The notes below the pieces were generated by a model. That model was not told the origin of the DNA and did not search any database. It was given only the letters and a program-made list of their open reading frames with translations. A DNA stretch of 64,000 nucleotides from Phenylobacterium sp. J426 (GTDB taxonomy: Bacteria; Pseudomonadota; Alphaproteobacteria; Caulobacterales; Caulobacteraceae): NCBI RefSeq assembly GCF_024699945.1, contig NZ_JAJOMY010000001.1:2418001-2482000 (forward strand), given 5' to 3'. A program made the position numbers and the translations under genes. Positions 37,373-48,608 of this stretch are shown piece by piece (position 1 is the stretch's first letter; each line of letters begins with the position of its first letter).

Positions 37373-37963
37373 ATGAGCTTTGCTATTGCTGCCGCCGCGA
37401 CCTTGCAGGCAGCCGCCTTCGTCAACGCCGGCGAGCTGCCGTCGGGGTTCGCTGCGGCGGCGGTCCCCGCGGACGGGATAGTTGTCTGTCAGGCGGACGC
37501 GGGCGGCGTCCTCACAGGATGCCGGTCGGCGCGAGAGCCGCCTGAGCGCGCGGATGAAGTCGCCGCCGGAGTGCTCGAAGGCCGTAAGACGCCCGCGCCC
37601 GCTGGTCCGCTAACCCTGCAGATCCATTTGAATGGCGCGCGCTGGATGCGGGTGGTCACCAATCCGCCGTTTGATCGCCCGGCCGGTCTCGCAATGCTCG
37701 AAGCTCAGCGCCGTGCCGGCGTGAAGATCCGGGCGGACGGCGCCGCCACCCTTCACTGCATCATCACCGACAAGGGGCGGCTCTCCGACTGTCAGGTCGC
37801 GCGCGAAGCGCCGGAGGGCGGCGGCTCGGCGGCGCTCGCGCTCAAGATCGCCAAGGAGATTCGGCTGCTTCCAGTCGGCCCGGACGGGCTGCCGACGGCG
37901 GGCGCGCTGGTCCGCATGCCATTCCAGTTCCGCATGCCCTTCGAAATCCGGCCCGCGAAATGA
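37373..37963 (+). CDS. Exported protein with two TonB_C-like half repeats
   Basis: The ATG at 37373 follows GGGGAG at good spacing. The 196-residue product begins with a short hydrophobic leader and contains two similar units. Near residue 38 is VCQADAGGVLTGCRSAREPP; near residue 124 is HCIITDKGRLSDCQVAREAP. They share the pattern Cys, G-x-L-x-x-Cys, AREPP/AREAP. Each is like the core of a TonB C-terminal domain (the CIITDKGRLSDCQV style). There is no proline-rich spacer or clear membrane anchor, so it is not a canonical TonB. Confidence 0.65.
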   Translation: MSFAIAAAATLQAAAFVNAGELPSGFAAAAVPADGIVVCQADAGGVLTGCRSAREPPERADEVAAGVLEGRKTPAPAGPLTLQIHLNGARWMRVVTNPPFDRPAGLAMLEAQRRAGVKIRADGAATLHCIITDKGRLSDCQVAREAPEGGGSAALALKIAKEIRLLPVGPDGLPTAGALVRMPFQFRMPFEIRPAK

Positions 37964-37999
37964 CGAGCACCTGACCGCTACGTGCTGACCGCCGTGCGT

Positions 38000-39138
38000 C
38001 TACTGTGACGCCCCCCCGCGCCTCGATCGGGACGACGGCTTCCAGCACGTCGCCCCGGACGAGGTGCAGCACGTCGTACCGGTCCAACGTCGGATCGATG
38101 TGGCCAGGAGCAAAGGCGATGCGTTCGCCGCGGCGCACCTCCGCCTCGGGCCGCATTACCCGCCCATGCTCGTCGCCGAAGAAGCGGTAGCTGCAGCCCT
38201 CGAATTTCGCGGTCAGCGGCTGGGGCAGGGGGGCCGTCGGTGGAGAAGGCCTTGAGCCCCGCGTCCACCGTCACCCACTGGGGATGGTTGGCGCTGATCA
38301 CCGCAGCCTCGATCGACAGGCTCTGGGCGAACGCGCCGTCCGGGTCCTCACCCAGCGCCTCGCGGTACTCGCGGTCCATGAAGGCGTAGGATCCGGGCTG
38401 CACCTCGGTCAGCACGCCAAGCGCCGCGTCGGTGGAGAACGTGCCGGTGCCGCCGCCGGTGACGACCTCGATGTCGAACCCGGCCTCCGACAGGGCGGCG
38501 CGGCAGGCCTTCAGCCGTTCCATGCCCTCCGCGACGGCGACGGCCCGCGCGCCGGCGCCGGGCATGTGCTGCCAGTGGCCGCCGTAGCCCTGCAGCCCGA
38601 CCAGGCTCAGCTTCGGCTGGGCGGCGACGGCGTTGGCGGTCGCCAGCGCCTGGCTCGGTCCCGACACCCCGGTGCGCCCGAGCCCCACGTCCACGTCGAT
38701 CAGCACCTGGATCGGCGAGGTCGCCGCCGCCCCCAGTTCGGCCGCCGCATCGGGATGGTCGAGCACGATGCGGAAGTCGGAGAGCCGCGCCGCCAGCGCC
38801 GCCGCCCGCGCAGCCGGGCCTGGGCCGGCGATGGGGGAGGTGATCAGGATGCCGTCGATCCCGGCCGCCGCCAGCGCCTCGGCCTCCGCCAGCTTCGCGC
38901 AGCAGACGCCCACCGCGCCCGCCGCGATCTGCCGGCGCGCCACCCACGCGCACTTGTGCGACTTCGAGTGCGGCCGAAGCGCCAGGCCGGCCCCCTTCGC
39001 CCGCTCCGCCATCAGCGCCACATTGGCCTCGAAGGCGTCGAGGTCGAGGACGGCGGCCGGCGTGGCGATCGCCTGCCGCGAGCCAGGCCGGCCGAGCAGG
39101 GCCAGGGCGGCTTTCAGGTGGGGCCGTTCGGAATCCAT
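38000..39138 (-). CDS. D-threonine aldolase/D-serine dehydratase-like PLP enzyme, frameshifted
   Basis: An alanine-racemase-fold N-terminal domain has the PLP Lys in RPHSKSHKC near residue 59, QGYGGHWQHM, and a phosphate loop TGGGTGTFSTD. The frame breaks at the G runs 38222-38233, where one base is extra. The continuation LTAKFEGCSYRFFGDEHG...RVMRPEAEVRRGERIAFAPGHIDPTLDRYDVLH lies in the next frame and carries the metal-binding GHIDPT motif of D-threonine aldolases. A second extra base in the C run 38011-38017 hides a natural stop at 38000-38002. The corrected length is about 378 residues. It cleaves or dehydrates D-beta-hydroxy amino acids. Confidence 0.78.
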
Positions 39139-43041: not shown

Positions 43042-43341
43042 ATGCCGCTCAGCGATAGACCCGCCTACTGCACCGTCGACCGGGACCTGCGCTTTCTCTC
43101 GATCAACGAGACGATGCTGACGGTGCTGAAGAAGACGCGGGACGACCTGATCGGTCGCACCTATCTCGAGGTCTATCCCGAGGCCGAGGGCGCGCCGCTC
43201 CACCGGATGCTGCAGCAGGCGCTTCAGTCCCTGACGCCGCAGAAGGGGCGTCTCTGGTCCGTACCGCTGGCCCGCGAGCTCGAGGTCGAGATCTTTCCGG
43301 TCGGCGGGACCCTCCAGGTCGCCTTCTCACTCGCCGATTAG
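43042..43341 (+). CDS. Stand-alone PAS domain protein, 99 aa
   Basis: The product is one PAS/PAS_4 fold: YCTVDRDLRFLSINETMLTVLKKTRDDLIGRTYLEVYPEAEGAPLHRMLQQALQS, then strands RLWSVPLARELEVEIFPVGGTLQVAFSLAD. No output domain is present. It ends inside the last four bases of the convergent hybrid kinase gene. It may be a soluble sensor or partner protein for that kinase, but only position suggests this. Confidence 0.75.
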   Translation: MPLSDRPAYCTVDRDLRFLSINETMLTVLKKTRDDLIGRTYLEVYPEAEGAPLHRMLQQALQSLTPQKGRLWSVPLARELEVEIFPVGGTLQVAFSLAD

Positions 43342-45158
43342 GGCGTCTCCGGACCGGCCTGCGCCGGAGACGGGCGGTCCAGGATCCGGCGCACCTTCTC
43401 CGCCAGCTGCTCGAACGTGAACGGCTTGGTGATGAGGTCCACGCCGGGGTCGAGGCGTCCGTTGTGCACGATGGCGTTGCGCGTGTACCCGGTGGTGAAC
43501 AGCACCGGGACTGCGATGCCGCGCGCGGCGACGGCCTCGGCGATCTGTCGGCCGTTGTAGCCGCCCGGAAGCACCACGTCCGTGAACAGCAGATCGGGGC
43601 GGAAGCCTTTGTCCAGGCAGGCGAGGGCGGCTTCCCCGTCGCGGGCTTCGCAGACCTCGTAGCCGAGCTCCCGCAGGATGCCGGCGGAATAGCTTCGCAG
43701 GTCGTCGTGGTCCTCGACCAGCAGGATGCGTTCGTCGCCCACCAGGAGATCGACGCCGACCGCCCGGGACGGCTCCGGCTCGGCCTCCTCGCCCACGTGG
43801 CGGGGCAGGTAGATCTTGATGGTCGTCCCGACGCCGACCTCGCTGTAGATCGCCACGTGCCCGTGCGACTGGCGCACGAAACCGTAGACCTGGCTTAGGC
43901 CGAGGCCGGTGCCCTTGCCCACCTCCTTGGTGGTGAAGAAGGGCTCGAACACCTGCTTGAGGATCTCGCGCGGCATGCCGGCCCCCGTGTCGGTGACGGC
44001 GATCATCACGTACTGGCCGGGCGCGAGCCCTTCCGGCACCGAGTCCGCATAGGCCTCGTCCAGCGCCGTATTCGCCGTTTCGATGGTCAGCCGGCCCCCC
44101 TCGGGCATCGCGTCGCGCGCGTTCACCGCCAGGTTCAGCATGGCGTTCTCCAGCTGCACGGCGTCGGCCTGGATCCGCCACACGCCGGCGCTCAGCACCG
44201 TCTCCAGGTCGATGGTCTCGCCCAGGCTGCGGCGCAGCAGCTCGCCCAGCCCCTGCACCAGCCGGTTGGGGTCGAGGGTCTGCGGCTGCAGCGGCTGGCG
44301 GCGCGAGAAGGCCAGCAGGCGCTGGGTGAGGGTGGCGGCGCGCTCGGCGCCGTGCAGGGCCATGTCGCGCGCGCGCAGCACGCGGGCGCTCTCGGCGCCG
44401 CCGGGCAGCTTGGAGAGCTGCCGGCCGATGGTCTCCAGCCCGCCCATGATGACGGTGAGCAGATTGTTGAAATCGTGCGCCACGCCGCCGGTCAGCTGGC
44501 CCAGCGCCTCCATCTTCTGGCTCTGCCGCAGCGCCTCCTCGGCGCGCGCCCGCTGGGCCATCTCCTCGCGCAGCCGAGCGTTCGCCGCCTCGAGCTGCCC
44601 TGCGCGCTGCTCCAGCCGGATCGCCATCCGGCTGGCGAACCACAGCAGCAAGGCCGCGATGAGGGTCATCAGCCCGAGAGCCAGGTAGCGACCGAGGATT
44701 TCCGGCAGCGGATCGCGGGTCGTGACCAGCCGCACCCAGCCGAACGGCACGCCCTCCTCGACCACGGGTCGGGTGACCACCAGGCGGCCATCCTGCCGTA
44801 GAGTCCCGGCCTCGCTCGGCGGAACCAGGTGCTGGGAATCGCCCCGGAGCGCGATCGCTTGGCCGCGCATGTCGAAGACGATGGCCTCGGCGATGTCGGG
44901 ATTGCGCTGGAAGGCGCGCAGCGCCTGGACCAGCGTCGTCCGGTCCTCGAACGCCAGCGGCGCCGAGATCGCGCCGGCCAGGATGTCGGCCTGCACCTCC
45001 GCCGCCTCCGCCGCCTGGAGGCGGTACGCGGCTTCCCGGCCGATGCCCAGCAGCAGGCCCAAAAGCAGCAGCACCACGGCGCTGACCCGCACCAGCTGGA
45101 ACTGCCGGCGCTCGGTGCGGCGGAGGCGGCCGAGGTCTTCGGATTCCATCATCGTCAT
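43338..45158 (-). CDS. CHASE8-domain hybrid histidine kinase with C-terminal receiver
   Basis: This 606-residue protein has TM1 at about residues 22-40 and a periplasmic CHASE8 domain at about 45-150 (ILAGAISAPLAFEDRTTLVQALRAFQRNPDIAEAIVFDMRGQAIA). TM2 is at about 158-180, followed by a coiled coil and a HisKA-type box with His228 in GGVAHDFNNLLTVIMGG. An HATPase domain (NLAVNARDAMPEGG, DTGAGMPREIL, GKGTGLGLSQVYG) precedes a receiver domain with DLLFTDVVLPGGYNGRQ. CHASE8 is best known from the diguanylate cyclase YfiN/TpbB. The start overlaps the YfiR-like stop (ATGA). Confidence 0.92.
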   Translation of the reverse strand: MTMMESEDLGRLRRTERRQFQLVRVSAVVLLLLGLLLGIGREAAYRLQAAEAAEVQADILAGAISAPLAFEDRTTLVQALRAFQRNPDIAEAIVFDMRGQAIALRGDSQHLVPPSEAGTLRQDGRLVVTRPVVEEGVPFGWVRLVTTRDPLPEILGRYLALGLMTLIAALLLWFASRMAIRLEQRAGQLEAANARLREEMAQRARAEEALRQSQKMEALGQLTGGVAHDFNNLLTVIMGGLETIGRQLSKLPGGAESARVLRARDMALHGAERAATLTQRLLAFSRRQPLQPQTLDPNRLVQGLGELLRRSLGETIDLETVLSAGVWRIQADAVQLENAMLNLAVNARDAMPEGGRLTIETANTALDEAYADSVPEGLAPGQYVMIAVTDTGAGMPREILKQVFEPFFTTKEVGKGTGLGLSQVYGFVRQSHGHVAIYSEVGVGTTIKIYLPRHVGEEAEPEPSRAVGVDLLVGDERILLVEDHDDLRSYSAGILRELGYEVCEARDGEAALACLDKGFRPDLLFTDVVLPGGYNGRQIAEAVAARGIAVPVLFTTGYTRNAIVHNGRLDPGVDLITKPFTFEQLAEKVRRILDRPSPAQAGPETP

Positions 45159-45657
45159 CGGCGCACCGAGAGGGCCAGAGCCAGGAGTTTCGAGCTGAGC
45201 TGCAGCCGGCTGCGCTCGGCCTGGATCGTGTCGACGTGGAAGCGCACCCGCTCGCCCGCCACCACGAAGTGGATCATCCCGCGCGTGCCGCCCGCGCCGG
45301 CGTCGGTGATGGTCAGCACCGGATGCCCGGCGACCGCCGCCAGGGCCTCGCGCACCGACTGCCGGGCGCTGCCGGTGACATAGGCCACGTGGCAGCCCGA
45401 GGCGGGCGTCACAGCCGGCAGGCGGCGCACCACCACCCGCGTCGCCGCCGCCCGCTCGATGGCGGCGCCGAAGTCGTCCTGGCCCACGATGCAGACGTTC
45501 AGCACGCCGCCGTCCGGCAGGCCCTGGGCGAAGGCCGGGAACTTGGTGATGAAGGCCGCCTTCACCGCCGTGTCCATCGGCTGGGCGCGCGCAGGCCCCC
45601 CACGCTCCAGACGAGCGCCAGGCCGGCCAGCAGGATGCGCGCCGCGCGGGAGGCCAT
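45155..45657 (-). CDS. YfiR-like periplasmic protein (DUF4154), one-base frameshift in leader
   Basis: The mature domain MDTAVKAAFITKFPAFAQGLPDGGVLNVCIVGQDDFGAAIERAA...GCHVAYVT...VLTITDAGAGGTRGMIHFVVAGERVRFHVDTIQAERSRLQLSSKLLALA has the YfiR/DUF4154 pattern. Its signal peptide (MASRAARILLAGLALVWSVGG) is in the adjacent frame. Adding one base to the C run at 45596-45601 joins them as ...GGPARAQPMDTAV, with an ARA cleavage site. The start ATG at 45657 overlaps the upstream receptor stop. In Pseudomonas YfiR represses the CHASE8 protein YfiN, matching the CHASE8 kinase encoded next. Confidence 0.82.
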
Positions 45658-47624
45658 CAGTGGGTCCAGCGCAGGCTCAGGAAGACGCTGCGCGGGATCT
45701 CCGAGCGGCGGGTCTCCGTGGCCTCGGCATGCCGCGCGTGCAGCAGGTCGCGGCCGACCACCGCGAACTCCAGGCCGTCCGTCACCCGCCAGGCCAGCCG
45801 CACATTGGCCTCGGCATAGCCCTCGACGCCCAGATAACCCGAGGCCGTCAGCCGCGGCGCGTCGTCGTACAGCCGACCGCCGACCGTCAGGTCCACCCTT
45901 TCGCCCAGCCGGAAGGTCGAGCTGGCCTTCAGCCACCAGCCGGGGTCCGCCCCGGCCGCCTCGAACCGCGCCACGTCGCGGCTGCCGGGCTTCAGCTCGA
46001 AGTCCTTCCGCAGCACCGCCCCGCCCAGGCTCGCCCGCCACCAGGGCGCGATCTCCACGTCGGTCCAGGCCTCCAGCCCCCAGGTCCGGCCCTGCATGGT
46101 GTTGCCCACGAAGATCGGCGGGTTGCGTCCGGGCACCAGCTCGTTGGTCCGCAGTTCGTCGTAGTCGTGCAGGTAGCCGGTCACCGACAGCGTGGCCGCC
46201 TCGGTGAGCCGTCCGCGATAGCCGGCCTCGTAGGCGATCAGCTTCTCCGAGCCCATCTGGCCCGGCTCCACCAGGCCCGCGATGGTGAAGTCCCGCTCGA
46301 TCCGCGAGGGGTTGCGGATCGCCCGCGACACCGCCGCCCACAGGAACTGCCGGTCCGACACCCGCCAGCCCAGGCGCGCGCTCGGCATCCACTCGGCCCG
46401 GGTGTAGTCGTTGGTCTCCAGCTTGACGCCCACCGTGAGGTCCACGGCGTCGCCCAGCGCGATATGGTCCTGGATGAAGACGTTGCCGATATCGACGCGG
46501 CGGCGCGGCGGCGACAGGAGCTGCGGCTCGGCCAGGGTGCGGAACTCGTCCTTGGTGATCCGGTAGCCCGCGCCCACGACGATGGCGTGCGCCCCCAGGC
46601 TGAAGGCGTGCTGCGCCTCCACGTCCCATACCCGGAGCTCGTCGTGGAGGCCGCGCGCCTGACGCTCGATCTGGTCGTAGTAGGCCTGGACCTCGAACTC
46701 CCCGCCCAGCGCCGGCCCCCGCCAGCGGCCCAGCACATTGCCGCCCCGCACATAGCCGCCGTCGAAGCCCAGGCTCTGGTCGATGGTCGCGTCCTGCACG
46801 TCGCCCTGCAGGGTCAGGCTCTGGTCGCCCAGCAGCCAGTCGGTGCGGAACCCCGCCTGCCAGCCGTCCCAGCCGTCCTGCGCGTCGGATCCGTCCGCGA
46901 GCTCCAGGTCGCCCCGCTTGAAGGCGGTGGCGTAGATCCGCCCGGCGCCGGCCTCGCCAAGCGCGCCGCCGAGCCGCACCCGCACGTCGCTGTCCAGCGT
47001 GCCCACCGTGCCCGCCGCCAGCAGGCCGCGGGTCTCGAAGGCGCTGCGGGTGGTCACGCTGACCACCCCGTTCACGGCGTTCGCGCCCCACAGCGTCCCG
47101 GCCGGCCCGCTGATCACCTCGATCCGCTCCAGGTCGTCCAGCACCAGGTGGTGCTGGTCCCAGTCGACCCCCGAGAACAGCGGCGTGTAGAGGCTGCGGC
47201 CGTCCATCAGCACCAGCAGCTTGTTGGCCGACTCGAACCCCGCAAAGCCGCGCGCCGTGATCGAATAGTCCAGCGCGTCGATGCGCATCACTTCCAGGTT
47301 GGGAGCCAGCCGCAGCGCCTCGGGCAGCGTCTGGGCCCCGGCCTGCCTGACGGCGTCGGGCGTGATGACATAGATGGACGAGGCGGCGGTGTTCAGCCCC
47401 TCCGCCCGCCGCGACACCGACGTCACCCGGATCTGCGCCAGTTCGTCGAGGCTCAGCTCCGCCAGGTCGCTCGCCTGCCGCGCCGTGGCTGCGTCTTCCG
47501 CCTCGCCGGCGGCCGCCGATCCTGCCACGCAAACCGCCATGACGGCGCCGAGCGCCAGGGCGGCGCGGACAGACACGGCGAGGCCAGGGGCCGCGTCGCG
47601 CGCGGCCAGACCAGGAGAGCCCAT
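45657..47624 (-). CDS. TonB-dependent receptor, first gene of receptor-YfiR-kinase operon
   Basis: The product is about 655 residues; a second ATG one codon in (47624) is preferred, though 47627 is possible. A long leader with a hydrophobic AALALGAVMAVCVAGSAAAG precedes DLAELSLDELAQIRVTSVSRRAEGLNTAASSIYVIT. The plug domain follows (TLPEALRLAPNLEVMRID, SITARGFAGFESANKLLVLMDGRSLYTPLFSGVDWD, ERIEVISGPAGTLWGANAVNGVVSVTTR), then a barrel ending SVFLSLRWTH. It resembles BtuB/heme-type receptors in size. The TGA shares bases with the YfiR-like start, implying coupled translation. Confidence 0.92.
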   Translation of the reverse strand: MGSPGLAARDAAPGLAVSVRAALALGAVMAVCVAGSAAAGEAEDAATARQASDLAELSLDELAQIRVTSVSRRAEGLNTAASSIYVITPDAVRQAGAQTLPEALRLAPNLEVMRIDALDYSITARGFAGFESANKLLVLMDGRSLYTPLFSGVDWDQHHLVLDDLERIEVISGPAGTLWGANAVNGVVSVTTRSAFETRGLLAAGTVGTLDSDVRVRLGGALGEAGAGRIYATAFKRGDLELADGSDAQDGWDGWQAGFRTDWLLGDQSLTLQGDVQDATIDQSLGFDGGYVRGGNVLGRWRGPALGGEFEVQAYYDQIERQARGLHDELRVWDVEAQHAFSLGAHAIVVGAGYRITKDEFRTLAEPQLLSPPRRRVDIGNVFIQDHIALGDAVDLTVGVKLETNDYTRAEWMPSARLGWRVSDRQFLWAAVSRAIRNPSRIERDFTIAGLVEPGQMGSEKLIAYEAGYRGRLTEAATLSVTGYLHDYDELRTNELVPGRNPPIFVGNTMQGRTWGLEAWTDVEIAPWWRASLGGAVLRKDFELKPGSRDVARFEAAGADPGWWLKASSTFRLGERVDLTVGGRLYDDAPRLTASGYLGVEGYAEANVRLAWRVTDGLEFAVVGRDLLHARHAEATETRRSEIPRSVFLSLRWTH

Positions 47625-47723
47625 CAACCCCTCGTTCCAAGCCCCCCGGCTCGAAGGCTGCGCTTAGCACATCCGGTCATCATGTCGGATCCCCCGGCTT
47701 TTCCCGCGCGGGTGGGGCGCCGC

Positions 47724-48608
47724 TCAGCCGCTCCATCCCTCCGGCATCACCATGCCCACCGGGTAGGCCGGGCTGTCGCTCGACACCACGATGCCCCGCC
47801 GGATCGCCTGCGCCGCCTCGGGCGTCTCGTCCTGCGGGTCGGTGAACCGCCGGGTGATCACCACGAAGGGGCGCGTCTTCTCCTCCATCTCCTCGACCAT
47901 GTTCTGCGCCACCAGCCGCTCGCAATACTTGGTGGGCGCGCCCCGCGCCGCCTGCCAGCGGATGACGTCGAAGTGCAGGCGCCTGGCCCAAACATTGTCC
48001 CGGTCGGCCGACAGCGCCACCTCGCGAGCTTCGTCGAACAGGTAGTCCGCATGGAACTGGCGCGCCTGCGCATAGTCGTCGGCGAAGTCCGGCTCCTGCC
48101 GCAGCCACTTGTACACCGTCGCCGGCGCCGGCATCCCCGGATCGCGCAGGATCGAGATCAGGCTTTCGCCGTTCGCCAGCCCGAAGCAGATCTGCGCCCG
48201 CACCTCGGGCCCATAGCCGCCGCCCGTCTCCGTCTCCGCTTCCCGCGCCGCCGAATAGCGCCGCGGCCGGATCATCCGCTCGGCGGCGAGCGCGTGGGCG
48301 CGCGCCACGTCCAGCCGCCGCCGGGCGAGCCGCGCCCGCCGCTGCGCCGCCGTCAGCGCCGCCCCGAACTCGGGATGCGCATAGCGCCATACCCGGATCG
48401 ACGGCCCGCTCGGCATCCCGGGCGTCCGGCTCAGCGCGCTCAAGGTCTCCCCCGCCGCCACCCGGGCCACGATCTCGCGCCCCAGCTCGTCCGAGAAGAA
48501 CACGCTCTCCCGCCGCGGCGCAGCCTCGCCCGGGAGCGAGCCCTCGGAAGACCCGAGAGCCGCGCCCAAGGCGGCGCCCCGCGCCGGCCTGTCGCCGCCG
48601 CCATCCAT
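47724..48608 (-). CDS. Terminase small subunit-like protein, orphan
   Basis: This 294-residue protein contains two similar helix-turn-helix units: VARVAAGETLSALSRTPGMPSGPSIRVWRYAHPEFGAALTAAQRRARLARR, and CFGLANGESLISILRDPGMPAPATVYKWLRQEPDFADDYAQARQFHADYLFDEA. This LSxxxGMPSxxTVxxWxxxxPEFxxxYxxAR pattern is that of phage terminase small subunits of the Sf6/gp6 type. After it comes DNVWARRLHFDVIRWQAARGAPTKY, typical of the group. No other phage genes are visible within the window. Confidence 0.75.
   Translation of the reverse strand: MDGGGDRPARGAALGAALGSSEGSLPGEAAPRRESVFFSDELGREIVARVAAGETLSALSRTPGMPSGPSIRVWRYAHPEFGAALTAAQRRARLARRRLDVARAHALAAERMIRPRRYSAAREAETETGGGYGPEVRAQICFGLANGESLISILRDPGMPAPATVYKWLRQEPDFADDYAQARQFHADYLFDEAREVALSADRDNVWARRLHFDVIRWQAARGAPTKYCERLVAQNMVEEMEEKTRPFVVITRRFTDPQDETPEAAQAIRRGIVVSSDSPAYPVGMVMPEGWSG

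Follow-up and report, generated by a model that had tools for sequence, protein, structure and literature searches.

Does the TonB-dependent receptor (TBDR) gene that stands ahead of a YfiR-like gene and a CHASE8 hybrid histidine kinase gene in Phenylobacterium sp. J426 belong to a signalling module that spans the envelope? The sequence-only reading of the 64,000-nucleotide stretch analysed here (the window) had proposed that ligand uptake at the outer membrane relieves inhibition of the kinase by YfiR. The gene set is a real and widely conserved variant of the YfiBNR kind, with a TonB receptor as its outer-membrane partner. The reading of compounds beyond the outer membrane without an STN domain and an anti-sigma factor is a poorly known field, and a TBDR-YfiR-CHASE8 locus spread over ten or more phyla, by record titles, would assign a sensory function to many TonB receptors that are now orphans.

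Domain composition of the locus

All three genes lie on the reverse strand. NCBIfam 20.0 already names a family for each: NF053590 (TOL_0244 TBDR), NF053591 (TOL_0243 YfiR-like) and NF053592 (YfiR-associated kinase). The TBDR (45657-47627) contains a Plug domain (59.8 bits) and a barrel (70.6 bits), both above the curated Pfam cut-offs, and passes NF053590 with 647.1 bits against a cut-off of 645. The DUF4154/YfiR domain lies in an open reading frame of 140 amino acids, counted from its first in-frame ATG (45155-45577); Pfam gives the domain 102.5 bits (cut-off 24.9), and with 95.1 bits the 140-residue product falls below the NF053591 cut-off of 125. The hybrid histidine kinase (43338-45158) consists of CHASE8 (residues 48-145; 41.7 bits, cut-off 27), HisKA (219-288; 28.8 bits, cut-off 26.9), HATPase (332-453; 69.9 bits) and REC (478-590; 61.8 bits) domains. 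All four exceed their Pfam cut-offs, so that the CHASE8 match, on which the sequence-only reading depended, was recovered by profile search, and a histidine kinase-receiver output does take the place of GGDEF. NF053592 (cut-off 194) was absent from the 25 families listed, out of 123, for this kinase. No STN domain was found in the window TBDR, where Plug and two barrel families were all that Pfam returned at E values up to 1, and no sigma/anti-sigma pair was found among the window neighbours scanned with Pfam. Directly upstream of the TBDR gene, at 47724-48608, lies a gene for a protein similar to the Sf6 terminase small subunit (PF20901, 135.3 bits). Another hybrid kinase of the same genome (L078) matches CHASE8 only marginally (27 bits in one search and 24.8 in another) and has no YfiR or TBDR neighbour in its gene map.

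The window copy of yfiR

The locus had been read as three overlapping genes, and the overlaps do exist. The TBDR stop codon (TGA, 45659-45657) shares one nucleotide with an ATG at 45657, and the YfiR stop codon overlaps the kinase start by four nucleotides (ATGA), an overlap length that recurs in 18 of 35 YfiR-sensor junctions of same-order loci (our own gene calls). The ATG at the TBDR stop, however, misses the frame of the YfiR domain: it opens a signal-peptide-like frame of 31 codons (45562-45657, reverse strand, read from the sequence) that stops at 45562, and the YfiR domain is encoded in a different one, with its first in-frame ATG at 45577 and no in-frame signal peptide. The two frames diverge at a run of six G (45596-45601, reverse strand). 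Of 215 YfiR genes (those above 60 bits in our own profile, two weaker ones being dropped and at least three genomes counted twice), 209 encode a hydrophobic segment in the same frame as the domain and at most 60 residues before it. With a hydrophobic-leader score of 0.17 against a cut-off of 1.8, the window yfiR is the single clear exception among them, four others scoring 1.72-1.78 and one being cut by a contig end. Since the start frame and the domain frame do not connect, it was counted as frameshifted, and it appears to be so through either assembly error or decay.

Strain-specific decay, which would make yfiR a pseudogene and leave the kinase unregulated, has in our estimate somewhat less than an even chance; it would be compatible with the mechanism that we prefer for the family. 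The signal-peptide-like start and the YfiR domain occupy different frames, and the window protein has lost a W-P pair whose W is kept in 170 and P in 173 of 187 aligned YfiR sequences, both of which speak for decay. Against it stand the intact TBDR and kinase frames; moreover, because the frames part at the G-run and assembly completeness is 93.92%, compared with 99-100% in eleven listed same-genus genomes, an assembly error is equally likely. As yfiR is frameshifted, the module may be non-functional in this genome, and the window copy is probably compromised. Elsewhere in the window, an Ala_racemase_N gene at 37842-39100 (domain 38350-39093), which we take to be D-threonine-aldolase-like, seems to switch frame near its end; the 104-residue piece behind it in the next frame has no Pfam match, so that this frame change is unconfirmed. 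A frame-switch scan of the loci mixes true gene boundaries with frameshifts, and no count was drawn from it.

Conservation of the gene set

Among 299 same-order genomes, DUF4154 was found in 42 and CHASE8 in 99. CHASE8 lies within 500 nt downstream of DUF4154 on the same strand in 117 of 147 DUF4154 loci, comprising 47 from the order and 100 phylum-level matches; the remaining phylum-level matches, many of them low-scoring or from genera already sampled, were left out. The order and phylum samples have a few genomes in common, and the pooled sets of 187 and 215 sequences include at least three genomes twice (L228/L068, L234/L073 and L259/L095). The same association was recovered from the receptor side, with an alignment of 14 YfiR-linked receptors as query: yfiR stands beside 70 of the best 80 of 568 TBDR relatives; in 65 it follows the receptor gene immediately, in the same orientation and no more than 400 nt away, and in 68 CHASE8 is present as well. 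In four of the ten relatives without yfiR the sequence ends 0-220 nt past the receptor gene and in one 999 nt past it; the other five have ample sequence. Because the query was built from YfiR-linked receptors and the best 80 of 568 were taken, these counts hold for this subfamily and not for TBDRs at large. The record titles of the relatives that carry yfiR span ten or more phyla (Pseudomonadota, Bacteroidota, Verrucomicrobia, Gemmatimonadetes, Nitrospira, Nitrospinaceae, Planctomycetota, Acidobacteria, Armatimonadetes and others); the Bacteroidota include the isolate Reichenbachiella faecimaris, and most non-proteobacterial records are metagenome-assembled genomes. Within the 299 same-order genomes, with at most four candidates scored per genome, DUF4154 lies within 3 kb of 32 of the 34 NF053590 matches above 400 bits (two on the opposite strand); one of the two matches lacking it is at a contig start, and in that genome DUF4154 is found at the end of a different contig.

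Some variant arrangements were also observed. In L048-L051, a CHASE8 kinase, a receiver, a receiver-kinase, a TBDR and YfiR form one run, a reordered and enlarged module, and in L048, L049 and L050 a FeeM/autoinducer-synthase-like acyltransferase gene follows straight after yfiR, which hints at an acyl signal there. There is also a second TBDR subfamily (L046, L047 and L190-L197), whose mature proteins begin with a sequence resembling SIDYGxxEQLFNEPVTTSATGS. In each of the 10 loci examined, its receptor gene is immediately preceded by a degenerate gene of the DUF4154 kind; the E values run from 7e-6 to 0.034, in a search that was unfiltered and returned a chance match at 0.041 as well. An MCP gene adjoins the locus in L047, and MCP-motif open reading frames flank both sides in L195.

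Outer-membrane partner and output type

The outer-membrane partner depends on the output type. Among loci whose upstream sequence extends for 800 nt or more, a same-strand TBDR lies within 3.5 kb in 64 of 87 kinase-type loci (32 from the order, window included, and 55 from the phylum) versus 0 of 14 GGDEF-only loci (Fisher p=1.2e-7), while a same-strand gene with an OmpA motif, defined by a pattern of our own, lies within 4.5 kb in 0 of 87 versus 12 of 14. The GGDEF-EAL loci have a TBDR in five of eight cases and an OmpA-motif gene in none, and a same-genus locus carries a GGDEF-EAL protein behind TBDR-YfiR. The sequence-only reading had also required the TBDR in homologous loci, and it is indeed there in the 64 kinase-type loci, the other 23 lacking it. 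Two loci that have no TBDR in range (L060 and L065) contain a tonB gene (PF03544), which is separated from yfiR by roughly 775 and 550 nt. Both also have two more upstream genes that match exbD and exbB in size alone, and the gene map of L062 is similar. Because loci have either a YfiB-like protein or a TBDR according to their output, the part that this outer-membrane partner plays can be tested directly by removing its gene.

The cysteines of YfiR were compared in P. aeruginosa numbering. An alignment to the PDB sequence shows that both members of the C71-C110 pair are kept in the window YfiR; the pair is not universal, Cys being found at the two positions in 123 and 137 of 187 sequences. The second pair (C145-C152) is absent from the window protein. 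Two or more Cys are found in this part of the protein in all 11 GGDEF-type proteins, in 0 of 87 of the kinase type, in 0 of 8 of the GGDEF-EAL type and in 4 of 66 receptor-first loci.

Co-variation of YfiR with the CHASE8 sensor

YfiR co-varies with the CHASE8 sensor and not with the attached kinase. In 58 kinase loci with all four parts full-length (largest distances capped), the YfiR-CHASE8 distance correlation is 0.754 and the partial correlation 0.638 (permutation maximum 0.119), against a partial of 0.078 between YfiR and the kinase core fused to that sensor. The sensor gives partials of 0.315 with the kinase core and 0.288 with the TBDR (permutation maximum 0.17). The Phe of the CHASE8 motif is present in all 187 aligned sensors, including that of the window, and the corresponding Phe of the YfiN 'AAVVF' site is a proposed YfiR contact (PMC3375315); co-variation and invariant Phe together thus support an action of YfiR on CHASE8. 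Direct-coupling analysis of 187 YfiR-CHASE8 pairs (effective number 169) gave a mean of 0.96 for the ten top inter-protein pairs versus 0.63-0.76 in eight re-pairings, the top pairs being scattered and the score still including relatedness.

AlphaFold2 models were made of natural read-through chains from other loci, YfiR-CHASE8 of L091 (pTM 0.51) and TBDR-YfiR of L056 (pTM 0.81), with no decisive docking in either. Since the YfiR-CHASE8 contact is supported by P. aeruginosa genetics (PMC3375315) and nevertheless reached a pTM of 0.51, the read-through test is too weak, and the 0.81 for TBDR-YfiR says little. The nearest solved folds to the AlphaFold2 model are Cir and BtuB.

Kinase output

The window kinase keeps its phosphorylation-site and ATP-binding motifs, as judged by inspection. 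Its output partner had been described as not encoded adjacently except for a lone PAS protein, and the first part of this stood: a Pfam scan of the window found no receiver, HisKA, GGDEF, EAL or cyclase gene adjoining the kinase. The PAS gene (43042-43341) was rejected as output partner, being convergent and not recurring beside the kinase where related loci were mapped. Among related loci, the gene next to the kinase has a Response_reg domain in 30 of 77 cases, HisKA in 10, GGDEF in 8, EAL in 3 and guanylate cyclase in 2 (77 of 130 next-gene open reading frames found were scanned; L259 and L095 are identical).

Proposed mechanism and alternatives

By analogy with YfiBNR, a YfiR-repressed kinase freed via an outer-membrane receptor, as the sequence-only reading had it, is the most economical interpretation. 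We consider it fairly probable that the module is a trans-envelope switch of this kind, in which the TBDR replaces YfiB and the kinase replaces the diguanylate cyclase. The TBDR would bind, and probably import with TonB, an extracellular compound. The periplasmic YfiR-like protein would, by homology, sit on CHASE8 and lock the kinase in one state until the occupied receptor or the imported ligand removes it, as YfiB does in YfiBNR. The hybrid kinase, whose domains are intact and whose activity is predicted, would then phosphorylate its own receiver and pass the signal to a partner encoded elsewhere, the next gene in related loci often having a receiver domain. Counting against this explanation are the partial correlation of 0.035 between the whole TBDR and YfiR once the others are removed (58 loci), the read-through models without decisive docking, the 23 of 87 kinase loci without a same-strand TBDR within 3.5 kb and the frameshift in the window yfiR.

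The removal of YfiR could take either of two forms. The TBDR may merely import the ligand, which YfiR would bind in the periplasm, freeing CHASE8 without any contact between TBDR and YfiR; we regard this as a serious possibility, although one that falls short of being probable. It is consistent with the low whole-protein TBDR-YfiR partial, with the resemblance of YfiR to a substrate-binding protein and with the vitamin B6 and L-Trp reported to bind P. aeruginosa YfiR in the pocket for F57 of YfiB (PMC4887326). Splitting the receptor gave a barrel-YfiR partial of 0.308 (permutation maximum 0.146) and a plug-YfiR partial of -0.277, as import would have it; however, plug and barrel distances are collinear, so that the opposite signs may be a suppressor effect, and TBDR and OmpA-motif genes never occur together in any output type, as if they had the same role. 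Alternatively, a short N-terminal segment of the TBDR could bind YfiR as the YfiB N-terminus does, which seems unlikely to us. The window TBDR has a conserved N-terminal segment followed by a TonB-box-like stretch at about residues 50-70. The segment is conserved in 58 linked TBDRs (L in 50 of 57, L or M in 50 of 57 and L in 55 of 57 at three columns), as taken from their alignment in place of a regular expression that was loose, unanchored in many receptors and applied to no genome-wide set of unlinked TBDRs. Sequence similarity to the colicin I receptor of E. coli starts past most of the segment, at query residue 17, and YfiB-like N-termini contain a superficially similar [LF][ST]xxQ stretch. 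That stretch, however, aligns to a helix mostly invisible in the YfiR-bound structure (numbering of PMC4887326), so that the N-terminal likeness may be due to chance; AlphaFold2 reached block pLDDT values of only 64 and 86 at the segment, in an output without contacts, and plug-side co-variation with YfiR is absent. The barrel/plug split and a YfiR that binds small molecules slightly favour import and sensing over docking.

It is rather improbable that the TBDR is simply a transport target of the kinase, sharing the operon for expression and having no input role. Such a role would agree with the lack of docking evidence and with the 23 kinase loci that have no TBDR in range, but 15 loci have no CHASE8 gene directly after yfiR and still carry a TBDR at most 500 nt upstream of it (CHASE8 is 2.8-5.7 kb upstream in six, one is cut by a contig end and the stretch of eight contains none), and the second TBDR subfamily has its degenerate DUF4154-like gene upstream in every locus examined, some of these matches being near chance. 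To extend the switch to a broad class, in which a TBDR gates a two-component kinase or a GGDEF-EAL protein by taking YfiR off CHASE8, possibly via a short N-terminal peptide and, in some hosts, in response to long-chain alkanes or similar hydrophobic compounds, would be a doubtful generalization.

Comparison with known systems

Transducing TBDRs of the FecA/FpvA-FecR type signal across the envelope, and the proposed module would likewise employ a TBDR in trans-envelope signalling. Unlike these receptors, the window TBDR has no STN domain, and its scanned neighbours include no sigma/anti-sigma pair.

YfiR-YfiN modules whose output is a sensor kinase, a hybrid kinase, a GGDEF-EAL protein or an MCP have been known since 2012 (Malone et al., PMC3375315), and HmsCDE in Yersinia is described as a YfiBNR relative. 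The kinase modules of the 2012 paper resemble that of the window: YfiR stands beside a kinase or hybrid kinase whose periplasmic domain is YfiN-like, and YfiB is mostly missing. The word TonB is absent from the main text of that paper. On the receptor side, TOL_0244 of Thalassolituus oleivorans, which gives its name to the family of the window TBDR, is induced 7-fold on n-C28 versus Tween 80 and is 40.3% similar to Alcanivorax OmpS, a TBDR described as an alkane sensor and chemotaxis trigger (PMC6304351, PMC5174103, PMC9788540). The earlier suggestion that the system had not been described therefore needs qualification, as kinase-output YfiR modules and the NCBIfam names exist; the part that holds is the link to a TBDR, no description of a TBDR-YfiR-kinase system having been found among the papers listed from the open-access literature, a scope outside which subscription papers mostly fall. 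The families are thus already named, and it is a mechanism that we propose from sequence comparison. An alkane ligand in this genome was considered and rejected, none of its three FA_desaturase-family matches having what we take to be the AlkB signature.

The window module is closest in plan to YfiBNR of P. aeruginosa, with which it has in common a YfiR-family periplasmic protein beside a CHASE8 inner-membrane sensor, the conserved Phe in the CHASE8 motif and an outer-membrane protein in the locus. It differs from YfiBNR in that its output is HisKA-HATPase-REC rather than GGDEF, its kinase-type YfiR is without the second Cys pair, and the place of the OmpA/Pal-like YfiB is taken by a TBDR.
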